DNA from: Candidatus Alcyoniella australis
GTDB taxonomy: Bacteria; Lernaellota; Lernaellaia; JAVCCG01; Alcyoniellaceae
Assembly: GCA_030765605.1 (NCBI GenBank)
Contig: JAVCCG010000063.1
Location: forward strand, 1 to 37,653
Direction of reading: 5' to 3'
Length of the DNA stretch: 37,653 nt
Shown here: in pieces, positions 16,610-32,817 of the stretch
Numbering within the stretch: position 1 is the stretch's first letter
Layout of the letters: every line of letters starts with the position of its first letter
Translations under genes and position numbers: made by a program
Notes under the pieces: generated by a model
Told to the model about the DNA's origin: nothing
Databases searched by the model: none
The model's input: only the letters and a program-made list of their open reading frames with translations

Positions 16610-16703
16610 CCCGGATTATCCATGAGGGTTCGTCGACGAAGCGCGCAAGGCGCTGCAAATACAAGAAAGCGCTCCAAGCTCAAAGTACAACGATGATCTG
16701 CAC

Positions 16704-16771
16704 GACGCGGTACGGTTCGTTGACAAACGACCAGAGCGATACGCGAGTCTTGCGGGCGGCTCAAAGCCGCC
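16704..16771 (+). repeat. CMA-hairpin element, copy C
   Basis: A 50-nt arm (16704-16753) ends in ACGCGAGTCTTGC and leads into hairpin GGCGGCT-CAA-AGCCGCC (16755-16771). Compared with copy A, four stem positions differ on each side with pairing kept. TCGTT-GACA-AACGA in the arm can form a second stem. The hairpin ends 6 nt from the stop of the M50 gene, which runs towards it. Confidence 0.75.
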
Positions 16772-20012: not shown

Positions 20013-20042
20013 AACATTATTCCCCTCCCCAACCTTACCTTC

Positions 20043-20106
20043 GTCGCGGAGAGCATGAACCACAAGCATGGTTGCTCGCGTGCCATGCGGGCACCTCAAA
20101 GCTGCC
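20043..20106 (+). repeat. CMA-hairpin element, copy D (imperfect)
   Basis: The arm is shortened to 46 nt (20043-20088) and ends TGCTCGCGTGCCATGC. The hairpin is GGCACCT-CAA-AGCTGCC (20090-20106) with one C-C mismatch. AACCA and TGGTT within the arm can pair. This copy lies in a divergent intergenic region and does not follow a gene end. Confidence 0.55.
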
Positions 20107-22897: not shown

Positions 22898-22964
22898 GGC
22901 AGCTTGGAGCTGCCACAAAACACGCGCAGTACGATGGTCGTAATCCAACGTGCCACTCCGCGTC
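22898..22964 (-). repeat. CMA-hairpin element, copy E (inverted)
   Basis: On the minus strand a 50-nt arm starting GACGCGG (22964 down to 22915) ends in CTGCGCGTGTTTTG and meets hairpin GGCAGCT-CCA-AGCTGCC (22914-22898). The hairpin lies 15 nt beyond the stop of the plus-strand MBL gene, so orientation flips together with the gene. The outer flank CTCCCCGATCTT is shared with copy B. Confidence 0.75.
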
Positions 22965-23013
22965 GAAAGATCGGGGAGAGTGCTGATGCCCCGGCGAGCA
23001 GGTGGGGTGGGCA

Positions 23014-23045: not shown

Positions 23046-23189
23046 GTCTCTCCTCCCCCGCGCTCGGCAAAGATCAGTTTGAGATTTTTCCTACTAAGCT
23101 CAAAGGCGATGCAATTGTGTGCGCGGGGGATTGATCAGCGGGTTCTCATCCGAAAATAGGGCAAAAAAAACCGTAATTGGCGAAGCCGG

Positions 23190-23255
23190 GCGGCTATGAG
23201 CCGCTGCAAGGCTCGCATATTTCCCGGATCGTTTAGCGTCGATCTATACCGCGTC
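23190..23255 (-). repeat. CMA-hairpin element, copy E2 (inverted)
   Basis: On the minus strand a 50-nt arm (23255-23206, starting GACGCGG, ending TGCGAGCCTTGC) precedes hairpin GCGGCT-CAT-AGCCGC (23204-23190). It stands head-to-head with copy F; the two share three bases at 23253-23255. Confidence 0.65.
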
Positions 23256-23321
23256 GCGGAGATTATCGTTGAGCCAAGAGTTTGGTCCGCTTGCGAGTTT
23301 TGCCCCCGGCTCCAAGCCGGG
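23253..23321 (+). repeat. CMA-hairpin element, copy F
   Basis: A 51-nt arm (23253-23303, ending TTGCGAGTTTTGC) and hairpin CCCGGCT-CCA-AGCCGGG (23305-23321). The stem sequence differs strongly from copies A and C but pairs fully. Its right edge is the point where homology of the O-methyltransferase remnant stops. Confidence 0.7.
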
Positions 23322-23555
23322 CAACGCCTTGGCGATCCAATAGGCCGAGTAGCCAAAGCCCGATCCCAGCTCGAGCACGTTGCGCGCGCCGCCGAGCTTG
23401 ACCAGCATGTGCAACAGCATGCCCACCTGCGGCCCGACGATCGGGAAGTCGCGTTGCGCGGCCAACCGTTCCATCTCTAAAAGCGGCGGATCGGCACTCT
23501 GCCGCTGGGAATCGATGTACTCCTCGATTCGCGGATCGACCGGAATTACGTCCAC
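23319..23555 (-). pseudogene. O-methyltransferase, 3' part lost at repeat copy F
   Basis: About 79 residues match the start of a SAM-dependent O-methyltransferase (PF01596 type): PPLLEMERLAAQ, DFPIVGPQVGMLLHML and the SAM-binding motif I VLELGSGFGYSAYWIAKALP. The family is about 200-220 residues. After Pro79 the frame continues only through repeat copy F to a stop at 23244, so motifs II and III and the C-terminal half are gone. It starts with GTG at 23555, 2 nt after the wrbA remnant stop, which points to a former two-gene operon. It is not expected to be functional. Confidence 0.75.
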
Positions 23556-23557
23556 GA

Positions 23558-23722
23558 TCAGCCCACGAGCTTGCGCGTTATCCGGGCCACGTGTTCGCCC
23601 TGGAAACGCGCGATGCGCAACTCGTTCTCGCTGGGCGAACGCGAGCCGTCGGCCCCAGCCACGGTCGATGCGCCGTAGGGACCGCCGCCCGAGATCTCGC
23701 CGCTCTCCATCAAGTCCGCCTC
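23558..23722 (-). pseudogene. wrbA: C-terminal remnant of a WrbA-type NAD(P)H:quinone oxidoreductase
   Basis: Translation on the minus strand ends [17 protein letters not shown], then [17 protein letters not shown] and KLVG before a TGA at 23560-23558. This is the characteristic C-terminus of flavodoxin-like WrbA. Only about 55 of the usual 200 residues remain. An in-frame TAA at 23734-23732 lies just upstream, and no earlier part of the protein is found, so the 5' three quarters are lost. The frame is otherwise intact, which suggests a recent deletion. Confidence 0.8.
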
Positions 23723-23832
23723 CCGTCGAATTTATTTACTCAACGGCAGGCTATCGCCCAATCGCTTTGGCATTTATGCGGAATGTCATATGCAGCTTAG
23801 AGCCGCCGCCCGTTGTCTGTAACCCAGGTGCG

Positions 23833-24228
23833 TCAGCGCAGTCGAATTTGGCTCAGTCCCAAGGTCCCCTTGTCGCCGTCGTTGTACTGAATATCGTACT
23901 TGTTGCCGTTGATCGCGCCGACCGTGCCCGGGTAAAAGCGGCCGTCGGACCACTGGGCGATTACCTTGGTTCCGACCTGCACGTCGGCGGCCGCGGGCAC
24001 CATGTCCACGGCGATCTGCATCAGGGCGCAGCACTTCTGGTCGCCGTCGTCGAACAGGATCTGGAAGCCCGCGGCGCAGGGGCCGGTGACCTTGCCGTGA
24101 AACCAGCCGTTGGACGTCCACTCGGCGAACACGGCGGTTCCCGGATCGATTTTTTTATCCGAACCCAGGGCCAGTCCGGCGATTAAAAACGAGCAGACAA
24201 TCACGCAGATCAACAGGCAACGTTTCAT
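23833..24228 (-). CDS. Secreted protein with two Tudor-like domains
   Basis: The 131-residue protein has a signal peptide (MKRCLLICVIVCSFLIAGLALG). Two related units of about 45 residues follow. Unit one reads FAEWTSNGWFHGKV, then FDDGD; unit two reads IAQWSDGRFYPGTV, then YNDGD. The W-x-D/N-G-x-F/W-x-G-x-V plus DGD pattern is that of Tudor-like (DUF4537/agenet-type) small beta barrels, best known for binding methylated ligands in eukaryotes. Export in a bacterium argues for another ligand. Cysteines in unit one could form a disulfide. GGGGAA lies about 7 nt before ATG. Confidence 0.7.
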   Translation of the reverse strand: MKRCLLICVIVCSFLIAGLALGSDKKIDPGTAVFAEWTSNGWFHGKVTGPCAAGFQILFDDGDQKCCALMQIAVDMVPAAADVQVGTKVIAQWSDGRFYPGTVGAINGNKYDIQYNDGDKGTLGLSQIRLR

Positions 24229-26825: not shown

Positions 26826-26890
26826 GCCGCGAAGTTCGGCGTTGCTTTACGACCAGCGTTCTGCGCGTGTTTTGCCGCGGCTCATAGCCG
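26826..26890 (+). repeat. CMA-hairpin element, copy G1
   Basis: A 50-nt arm (26826-26875, ending CTGCGCGTGTTTTGC) is followed by the shorter hairpin CGGCT-CAT-AGCCG (26878-26890). Most degraded member of the three-copy array. Confidence 0.6.
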
Positions 26891-26959
26891 GGCGCGGGGT
26901 GGATCGTGGAGCTGCGACCATGGTCCGCTCGCGTGCCATGCGGGCACCTCAAAGGTGCC
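26891..26959 (+). repeat. CMA-hairpin element, copy G2
   Basis: A 51-nt arm ending CTCGCGTGCCATGC, as in copy D, precedes hairpin GGCACCT-CAA-AGGTGCC (26943-26959). It begins at the last bases of G1 and is followed by GCCGGAACAGGTC, shared with the tail of G3. Confidence 0.7.
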
Positions 26960-26996
26960 GCCGGAACAGGTCAGTGCCTTAGCATTAAGGTGTGCC

Positions 26997-27064
26997 GTCG
27001 CGGCGAGGGTCGTTGAGTTAAGACCCTTTTGCTGCGCGAGCTTTGCGGGCACCTCCAAGGTGCC
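26997..27064 (+). repeat. CMA-hairpin element, copy G3
   Basis: A 50-nt arm (26997-27046, ending CTGCGCGAGCTTTGC) precedes hairpin GGCACCT-CCA-AGGTGCC (27048-27064). GGGTC and GACCC in the arm form a second stem. The hairpin ends 12 nt from the stop of the diacylglycerol-kinase-like gene running towards it. Confidence 0.75.
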
Positions 27065-28277: not shown

Positions 28278-29738
28278 ATGGTGAAGCTGAGCAAACCGAA
28301 GCTGTCGGACCTGGTCAACCTGCTGATCATCGCCCTGCCGATCGGGGCCTGGATCGAGGGGCTCGTTCGCGGCAGCGGCGCGTCGCTTTGGCTGCGCGAC
28401 TGGCTGCTCTCGAGCCTGGCCACATTGTCGTTCCTGATCGTTTTTTTAAACGTGATCAGCAGTCATGGTTACCTCTGGGTCCTGGCGCTAATCGCGATAA
28501 TCTGCGCGCTGCACGGCCTGCGCGTGGCCCGTCGGCCCCACTTTATTCGGAAATTCCTGAGAGCAACGGTCTGGACGATTTTCTTGTTCTGGAAGTACAC
28601 GGCGATCATCTTCACTCTTGCTGGCTGGTGGGTGCTGGCGATCAAAGTGCCGGGCTGGACATCGTTGATCGCGCTGTGCTGGCTCGCCGTGTACCTGGAA
28701 TTTCGCACTCTGAAATTTGTGCGCCGCAGTATCGCGGGCCTGATCGGCCTGACCTCGCTGTTGCTGTGCCTGCTGCTGCAAGTCCATGACTACTGCGGAG
28801 CCTCGCCGACCAAGCCCAAAAACATCTTCGGCAGATGCGGCACCTATGACATCGTGGACAACGGGCGCGGCCTGTTCGTTGTCGCTTTACGTGCCAGGTT
28901 TGCTCGCAGTCTCCAACCCAACGCAGAGTGGTCCCTTCTGGAAAAGACCGACTCGCCCCAACGGATGACCGTCGACCGCCTGACGGGCGATATCCTGCTG
29001 GCCAACTACGGCGGGGGTTGGATCACGGTGTTCGATGGCACGAACATCGAGACGATAAGAACCTGCCCAGAGCCGGTGGATATTGCGATCGACCAGGATC
29101 GGCGGCGGATGTACGTGGCCTGCGAGCGGATTGGCGTAATGCCGGTCTACGACCTTGACGGCGAACACGAACTGATCGAGACCCGGGACTCGCAGATCTT
29201 ATCCGTCAGCCTTTCTTTGGACCAGAAACGGCACAGACTCTACGCCACCTCGGAGATCCTCTGGGGCGCGCTAGAGGCCTTTGACCTCGACAGCGACTCG
29301 CACAGCGTGATCTACCCTGGGTTGCTCGTCTGGGGCGTGGCTGTGGACGAACTTACCGGCAACGTCTGGGTCGCCCGACCGCTGGCTGGACTGCTCGAGG
29401 TCTACGACCCTCAGCTGCACAAACTGGCCTCGGTGCGGGTGGGCACCTCGCCGCGCGATCTGGCGATCGACCCACAGCGACGGGTGCTGCTGGCGGGCAA
29501 CTATTTCTCGGGCACCGTGGCTGTTGTCGACCTGGACCAAATGCGGCTGGTCCGGCGACTGCGCGTGGGGCGCTACAGCCCGCTGCCGCTGCTCACCGGC
29601 GTGTACGTGGGCACGGACGGCTGGTGGTACGCAGCGGACCGCCACGGGGTCTGGCGCATCAGGCCCAGCCTGCCGCCTGAGCCGGACGCCGATTGCTGGC
29701 CGCCGGAGATGTCGCCGGTGCCGGAGCTGGTCCTGTGA
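28278..29738 (+). CDS. Membrane protein with extracytoplasmic beta-propeller (paralogue 1)
   Basis: The 486-residue protein has about five hydrophobic segments in residues 10-175 and then a beta-propeller-like region (about 185-470). Its repeating blades read MTVDRLTGDILLANY, IAIDQDRRRMYVAC, LSLDQKRHRLYATS, VAVDELTGNVWVAR and LAIDPQRRVLLAGNY, a YVTN/NHL-like pattern. It is probably a sensor, binding or scaffold protein; no catalytic residues are evident. ATG at 28278 has a weak ribosome site. It is followed after 1 nt by a close paralogue. Confidence 0.75.
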   Translation: MVKLSKPKLSDLVNLLIIALPIGAWIEGLVRGSGASLWLRDWLLSSLATLSFLIVFLNVISSHGYLWVLALIAIICALHGLRVARRPHFIRKFLRATVWTIFLFWKYTAIIFTLAGWWVLAIKVPGWTSLIALCWLAVYLEFRTLKFVRRSIAGLIGLTSLLLCLLLQVHDYCGASPTKPKNIFGRCGTYDIVDNGRGLFVVALRARFARSLQPNAEWSLLEKTDSPQRMTVDRLTGDILLANYGGGWITVFDGTNIETIRTCPEPVDIAIDQDRRRMYVACERIGVMPVYDLDGEHELIETRDSQILSVSLSLDQKRHRLYATSEILWGALEAFDLDSDSHSVIYPGLLVWGVAVDELTGNVWVARPLAGLLEVYDPQLHKLASVRVGTSPRDLAIDPQRRVLLAGNYFSGTVAVVDLDQMRLVRRLRVGRYSPLPLLTGVYVGTDGWWYAADRHGVWRIRPSLPPEPDADCWPPEMSPVPELVL

Positions 29739-29739
29739 G

Positions 29740-31176
29740 ATGAGAAAGCCCAAGGGCGCGGACCTGGTCAACCTGCTAATCGTCACGTTGCCGATTGCGG
29801 CCTGGCTCGAGGGGCTCGTTCGCGGCAGCGGCGCGTCGCTTTGGCTGCGAGACTGGCTGCTCTCGGGCCTGGCCACGGTGTCGTTCCTGATCGTTTTTTC
29901 CAACTTGACCAGCAAGCACGGCTACCTCTGGGTCCTGGCGCTGGTCGCGATAATCTGCACGCTGCACGGCCTGCGCGTGGCCCGTCGACCCAACGATCCG
30001 CGTGGTTTCTTACAAACCGCCGGTCGGACGTTTATCACGTTTTGGAAATACGTGGCCATCGTCTTCGTGCTCGTGGGCTGGTGGGTGCTTGCGATCAAGT
30101 TTCCGGGCTGGAGCGCGCTGATTGCGCTTTGCGGGCTTGCCGCCTACCTGGCGACCCGCGAGCGCGCCTTTGTCCGTCGCAACTTCGCCGCGATGCTCGG
30201 AGTGGCTTCGCTGTCGCTATTCATGCTGTTGCAGGTCCACGAGTTCGCAACGGCCCAGACCGCGGGCGGCGTGCGGATCTTCGAGCGTTACGGCGCCTAC
30301 GACATCGCGGACAACGGACGCGGGCTGTTTGTGGTCACCGCGCGCCATCCCGACGCCTTTAGGCTGATGCCCAACCAAAGCTGGCAGGACGTACAGCAGG
30401 CCTACAATCCACAGCGGATGGCGGTCGACCGCCAAACGGGCGAGATCCTACTGGCGAACTACCTCGGATCGCGGATCACGATCTTCGACGGCATTCAATC
30501 CGAGACGATCAAAACCTGTAGATGGCCGGTGGACATGGCCGTCGACCAGGACCGGCGGCGGTTGTACGTGGCCTGCGAGGGGATCCAGGAGCTGCAAGTC
30601 TATCAGCTCGACGGCGACCGCTCGCAAATCGACGCATGGTCCTCGCAGATCATGTCGTACAGCCTGGCTCTGGATCAGGTGCGGCACAGGCTCTACACCA
30701 CCTCCGAGATCCTCTGGGGCGCGCTTGAGGCGTTCGACACAACGGACGGCTCGCGCAGCAAGATCCACCCCGGGCTGATTGTCTGGGGCGTGGCCGTGGA
30801 CGAGCTGACCGGCAACGTCTGGATCGCCCGACCGCTGCCCGGAGTGCTCGAGGTCTACGACCCGCAGCTGCGCAAACTGGCCTCGGTGCGCGTGGGCACC
30901 TCGCCGCGCGATCTGGCGATCGATCCGCAGCGCCGGGTGCTGCTGGCGGGCAACTATTTCTCGGGCACCTTGGCCGTGGTCGACCTGGACCAAATGCGGC
31001 TGGTCCAACGCCTGAGCGTGGGGAGCTACAGCCCACTGCCGCTGCTCACCGGCGTGTACGTGGGCACGGACGGCTGGTGGTACACCGCGGATCGTTCGGG
31101 GGTCTGGCGCATCAGGCCCAGCGTGCCGCCCGAGCCGAACACCTACGGCTGGCCGCCGTCGCCAACCGGACTATAG
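29740..31176 (+). CDS. Membrane protein with extracytoplasmic beta-propeller (paralogue 2)
   Basis: The 478-residue tandem paralogue of the preceding gene has the same layout: MRKPKGADLVNLLI, five or so membrane helices, then propeller blades such as MAVDRQTGEILLANY, MAVDQDRRRLYVAC and LAIDPQRRVLLAGNY. The first 75 and last 120 residues are very similar to paralogue 1, about a dozen changes in the last 120, whereas the middle (about 80-190) is clearly diverged. ATG at 29740 lies 1 nt after the upstream stop; longer frames to the left are not used. Its stop lies in CTATAG, which also provides the stop of the convergent radical SAM gene. Confidence 0.78.
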   Translation: MRKPKGADLVNLLIVTLPIAAWLEGLVRGSGASLWLRDWLLSGLATVSFLIVFSNLTSKHGYLWVLALVAIICTLHGLRVARRPNDPRGFLQTAGRTFITFWKYVAIVFVLVGWWVLAIKFPGWSALIALCGLAAYLATRERAFVRRNFAAMLGVASLSLFMLLQVHEFATAQTAGGVRIFERYGAYDIADNGRGLFVVTARHPDAFRLMPNQSWQDVQQAYNPQRMAVDRQTGEILLANYLGSRITIFDGIQSETIKTCRWPVDMAVDQDRRRLYVACEGIQELQVYQLDGDRSQIDAWSSQIMSYSLALDQVRHRLYTTSEILWGALEAFDTTDGSRSKIHPGLIVWGVAVDELTGNVWIARPLPGVLEVYDPQLRKLASVRVGTSPRDLAIDPQRRVLLAGNYFSGTLAVVDLDQMRLVQRLSVGSYSPLPLLTGVYVGTDGWWYTADRSGVWRIRPSVPPEPNTYGWPPSPTGL

Positions 31177-32724: not shown

Positions 32725-32789
32725 TCGCGCGGTGGCCCTTTGCATTAGGGCCAGCGAATTACGCGAGCCATGCTGCGGTTCCAAGCCGC
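32725..32789 (+). repeat. CMA-hairpin element, copy I1
   Basis: A 49-nt arm (32725-32773, ending ACGCGAGCCATGC) precedes hairpin GCGGTT-CCA-AGCCGC (32775-32789), which keeps pairing with one G-U. The arm itself holds a perfect 7-bp hairpin TGGCCCT-7 nt-AGGGCCA (32733-32753), the clearest case of the first stem. Confidence 0.7.
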
Positions 32790-32817
32790 CGCGAGTTGTG
32801 CTGCGGCTCAAAGCCGC
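32790..32817 (+). repeat. CMA-hairpin element, copy I2 (partial)
   Basis: Only the box GCGAGTTGTGC and the hairpin GCGGCT-CAA-AGCCGC (32803-32817) are repeated, directly after copy I1. The hairpin ends 6 nt from the stop of the DUF1571 gene, which runs towards it. Confidence 0.65.

Follow-up and report, generated by a model that had tools for sequence, protein, structure and literature searches.

A methyltransferase gene stump joined to a truncated REPIN-like repeat composite in Candidatus Alcyoniella australis

A gene for an O-methyltransferase in Candidatus Alcyoniella australis ends at the hairpin of a palindromic repeat. The best explanation, to which we give roughly a two in three chance, is a short-homology deletion beside the repeat that removed the 3′ part of the gene together with the right arm of the element, the adjacent wrbA gene having lost its own part separately. 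We therefore regard the locus as most likely an instance of ordinary genome decay at a repeat, and do not read it as showing that the repeat transposed into the gene; the event is of a known kind and this is a new example of it. The sequence considered, here called the window, is 37,653 nucleotides long and is the whole of one contig (C63) of a 157-contig draft assembly.

The open reading frame at 23244–23555 (reverse strand) encodes 103 amino acids from a GTG start. Residues 28–79 match positions 14–67 of the 204-position Pfam profile PF01596 (Methyltransf_3; E=4.9e-7), which exceeds the curated cut-off and includes the N-terminal part with SAM-binding motif I. The match falls well short of the full catalytic domain (about 204 profile positions), and because positions 14–67 alone are covered we take the frame to be a remnant rather than a working member of the family. 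Full-length homologues reach 208–211 residues, or 208–210 in genomes of the same class, and those from three of these genomes (G002, G004 and G006) are 54–61% identical to the stump over 73–74 residues. The alignment runs without large gaps up to Ala-Leu-Pro, after which the homologues continue PDGEV.CTD and the window frame reads GLEPGAKLAS, which is repeat-derived. The gene thus accounts for codons 1–79 (23319–23555, reverse strand), through the SAM-binding motif LELGSGFGYSA, while codons 80–103 and the stop (23244–23318, reverse strand) are repeat, the frame GLEPGAKLASGPNSWLNDNLRDAV lying inside a plus-strand unit at 23252–23319. This agrees with the preliminary description, which had ended the homology at Pro79, on the last triplet of a hairpin, and assigned the rest of the frame to the repeat: Pro79 is the CCC at 23321–23319, the final stem triplet of the hairpin at 23305–23321. 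A profile search of the assembly (4.29 Mb, 98% complete) found no 3′ part of the gene elsewhere, a search for homologues found no short relative of the 103-residue form, and a search of viral contigs turned up nothing related to the fragment. In the present assembly, then, the gene is truly truncated.

Directly upstream lies a second stump, at 23564–23719 (reverse strand), corresponding to residues 148–199 of the NAD(P)H:quinone oxidoreductase WrbA (NF002999, E=8e-18, profile positions 148–199 of 200). It shares 63% identity with the complete protein of G006. Its 66 bits lie below the curated cut-off of 141 bits for a full-length match; the N-terminal three quarters are gone and the last 52 residues are left. 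A family search of the 98%-complete assembly found neither the 5′ part nor an intact wrbA elsewhere. At the wrbA-side break, positions 23716–23835 match no repeat of the genome beyond chance level; a weak 17-nt hairpin-like match at 23792–23808 (E 0.22 over the window) was not counted as a repeat unit. The two stumps are cut on both sides, by at least two losses. Because no repeat corresponds to the break in wrbA, the repeat accounts for at most one of these, and gene decay at the locus does not depend on it. A 131-residue protein with matches to Pfam Tudor-type domains, unusual for a bacterium, is encoded at 23833–24228 (reverse strand).

The repeat belongs to a large family with units of about 69 nt, each closed by a CGCG/CGCG stem and carrying two hairpins, one inner and one terminal. 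Terminal stems differ between copies (for instance GGCACCT/AGGTGCC, GGCAGCT/AGCTGCC, GGCGGCT/AGCCGCC and CCGGCT/AGCCGG), and over 44 distinct copies 98.9% of the cells of this stem are paired, with changes on both sides in 43 cases; slid controls score far below the structure of the whole unit. Searching with a covariance model yields at least 154 units here and none in the six other genomes of the class. With the family confined to one of the seven class genomes tested, and with its paired stem changes, it may prove more interesting than the gene remnant. Inverted pairs of units are common, with the centre CCGCGWCGCGG (about 16 pairs aligned), and at several loci the identity between copies of the pair reaches about 98% over 135 nt. 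There are also head-to-tail arrays with a period of about 64–69 nt (in the present genome, G000, at C119:139743–140260, C98:89884–90289 and C112:13235–13565). Units occur in the window at 170–238, 293–354, 16703–16771, 20042–20106, 22898–22965, 23189–23319, 26828–27064 and 32726–32790, and no Rfam family is found there. The pair at the methyltransferase gene (copy F, 23188–23322) consists of unit matches at 23256–23189 (reverse strand) and 23252–23319 (forward strand) around the centre CCGCGTCGCGG at 23249–23259. As single-stranded DNA it is predicted to fold into two terminal hairpins on a central stem (−33.8 kcal/mol, z −4.3), of which the right one, CCCGGCTCCAAGCCGGG, occupies 23305–23321.

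In behaviour the family works like the REP/REPIN repeats, for which REPINs have been proposed as pairs mobilised by RAYT transposases (Bertels and Rainey 2011, PMC3116915). As in those systems, there are many short hairpin units, often in inverted pairs with hairpins flanking a spacer that folds, and the genome carries a single RAYT gene: one Y1 transposase (C95:13478–13834, reverse strand) passes the RAYT model NF047646 with 100.6 bits against a cut-off of 80, and is the only match to a REP-associated tyrosine transposase in the genome. However, the present units are about 69 nt long with two hairpin regions, and their terminal stems differ from copy to copy through compensatory changes. We tested for flanking of the RAYT gene and for a constant tag and found neither, so membership in REP/REPIN is not established: the 3.36-kb RAYT locus has no unit within 1.5 kb (the nearest listed on that contig are about 4.5–9 kb away), and the bases at the hairpin outer edge vary among 77 units, with no constant GTAG-type tag. 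An earlier survey (PMC3733652) records intragenic REPs, dimers that sit within larger palindromes, stem variation in some families, and CGTC families that no RAYT flanks. Many of our units start with CGTCGCGG or CGACGCGG, which may recall the GTAG- and CGTC-tagged repeats of that work, but these starts lie at the far end of the unit from the terminal hairpin.

The pair sits within a larger element. This host is MITE-like: about 295 nt long, present in multiple copies, and with terminal inverted repeats of about 27 nt (GCGCTCGGC...ATCAGTTTGAGATT). Intact copies without the pair, of 295–296 nt, occur on contigs C69 (L134) and C151 (L135), with partial copies elsewhere, and a 375-nt version bearing the pair is found on C67 (L127), where the pair stands in place of about 58 nt of the host and is not a simple addition to it. 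Comparison with these three copies places the left arm in the window at 23060–23187 (forward strand), its terminal inverted repeat starting with GCGCTCGGC at 23060; a single further unit lies to the left of the composite at 22898–22965 (reverse strand; nhmmer, 59.4 bits). Left arm and pair closely match C67. As the window has exactly the same junction between left arm and pair as C67, the pair must have reached the locus already nested in the MITE-like element. On C67, C5, C92 and C119 the right arm starts after the right hairpin with GGGCAGCGCCTTTGAG; at that position the window has GGGCAACGCCTTGGCG, part of the methyltransferase. The right arm has no match anywhere in the contig. The hairpin is accordingly not the true end of the larger element, and the right arm is missing. 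Evidence that the repeat has spread lies in its copy number of at least 154 units, in composites that are nearly the same at separate loci, in its nesting within a MITE-like element and in the presence of a RAYT gene.

The junction itself can be examined by aligning the window to the C67 composite. At 23319–23330 the two share 12 nt with 11 identical, the methyltransferase reading AAGGCGTTGCCC where the hairpin and the start of the right arm read AAGGCGCTGCCC. The former encodes Lys-Ala-Leu-Pro, of which Ala-Leu-Pro is common to the homologues. Part of the match may be coincidental. Past the stem edge the window sequence GGGCAACGCCTT agrees with the usual continuation GGGCAGCGCCTTTGAG at seven of eight bases (23323–23330), which has a probability of about 6e-4 by chance for this composition. 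The shared sequence means that the breakpoint can be placed to about 12 nt at best. The preliminary description had the gene cut exactly at the edge of the repeat; Pro79 does end the stem, but the exactness is partly a product of the shared sequence, and the hairpin edge is not the end of the element. Since both the right arm and the 3′ part of the gene are absent, both were lost at one junction, inside the shared sequence. A truncated element combined with microhomology is the signature of a deletion and not of a clean insertion.

We envisage a gene pair, wrbA and the methyltransferase, that originally lay next to a composite of the MITE-like element and its nested REPIN-like pair. A deletion would then have joined methyltransferase codons 76–79 to the base of the right hairpin through some 4–12 nt of shared sequence, taking the 3′ part of the gene together with the right arm of the element. 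In bacteria, palindromes favour deletions that arise when short repeats slip against each other. The event here probably came about through slippage, or through template switching, past the hairpin. The loss of the 5′ three quarters of wrbA would be a separate event. On this account the locus is a readable history of decay, with a nested insertion followed by a short-homology deletion through gene and repeat. The mechanism and the order of events are inferred, as is deletion in preference to translocation: the ancestral order was seen in no close relative, so the two are not separable. Deletions adjacent to mobile elements were reportedly frequent in the Lenski experiment (PMC11708052), and the present gene loss likewise ends at an element, though here this is a non-autonomous repeat that is itself truncated at the junction.

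To see how genes generally meet these repeats, we surveyed coding frames adjoining unit edges at a sample of loci, some twelve frames in total. Among ten that were scanned, six have a Pfam domain whose C-terminal end is complete or nearly so, one has an MFS match that is uninformative on truncation, and three have no Pfam match. In 6 of 11 frames examined (edges L070, L068, L015, L006, L008 and L143) the unit edge itself completes a TAG stop, where TA comes from the gene and G is the first base of the element hairpin, which suggests that the element preferentially inserts at NTAG stop codons or is preferentially retained there. The methyltransferase edge has no such context. Given the six complete domains and the six TAG edges, adjacency to a gene end is normal for the element, and among the genes adjoining units at the sampled loci the methyltransferase is the exception. 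The truncation had been offered as evidence of mobility or of genome-rearranging activity, but it is not evidence of mobility: an intact gene next to an element, which the preliminary description itself had named as counting against it, is what we see in the six C-terminally complete frames. That a gene ends at a repeat is no proof of transposition when most of the adjoining genes checked end intact, and the evidence here shows neither insertion of the element into the gene nor rearrangement driven by it.

The same observations bear on the other ways in which the junction could have arisen. The preliminary description had left a choice between insertion with loss of the 3′ part and a recombination breakpoint, and it is the breakpoint that the truncated element and the 11 of 12 shared nucleotides favour. 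Entry of the pair or composite into the methyltransferase gene, with the 3′ part lost in the same event, is rather unlikely: the replacement of about 58 nt of the MITE-like element by the pair on C67 makes insertion with local loss seem possible for this family, and the genome encodes a RAYT, but the pair arrived already nested in an element whose right arm is missing at the locus, and the edge differs from the exact TAG stops seen at 6 of 11 gene-abutting edges. Homologous recombination between copies of the pair (by translocation, inversion or gene conversion) could instead have placed the left arm beside a pair that already abutted the methyltransferase, the 3′ part having been lost earlier or lying in an assembly gap. 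The high similarity of pair copies at several loci (up to about 98% over 135 nt) would allow this, and the hairpin/right-arm junction common to C92 and C119 and to C67 and C5, whose unit bodies differ, suggests past exchange. It nevertheless needs more steps than a single deletion, the assembly holds no 3′ part anywhere, and we consider it improbable. We are similarly doubtful of a more active process, in which the RAYT or a hairpin nuclease cleaves the hairpin base and so makes deletions that trim adjoining genes to the hairpin edge; were it correct, the methyltransferase stump would be one of its products.

Two further explanations were weighed. A chimeric join at the repeat might arise in a draft of 157 contigs, where several copies of the unit lie near contig ends, but is very unlikely here. 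The junction of repeat and gene is unique sequence at the repeat edge, and the differences private to the window relative to C67 (23175, 23248 and 23324) are spaced 73–76 nt apart, below the usual read length. They leave no run within the pair identical to C67 for more than 75 nt, so that a chimera formed inside the pair is unlikely at normal read lengths, and both stumps are truncated wherever a join might fall. It is more improbable still, to the point of being negligible, that the 103-residue product is a genuine short protein under selection. Its 79 codons have no internal stop or frameshift, the start is at the normal position and the coding score is positive; against this, about 130 residues are missing, including D..DK and DN segments invariant in four aligned full-length homologues, no short homologue was found, and the neighbouring wrbA is likewise a stump.

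For the deletion that we prefer, the ancestral arrangement is only inferred, as no close relative was found in the class genomes or in a scan of the species genome collection. The neighbouring metallo-beta-lactamase gene is 48–51% identical to genes in two genomes of the class, unlinked there to the methyltransferase. The best of 40 metallo-beta-lactamase loci in the species genome collection reaches 56% over the full protein, and these loci contain no repeat units, wrbA or methyltransferase. Elsewhere in the window, at 28278–31176, lie two tandem paralogous genes that are 72–90% identical in blocks 1453 nt apart.
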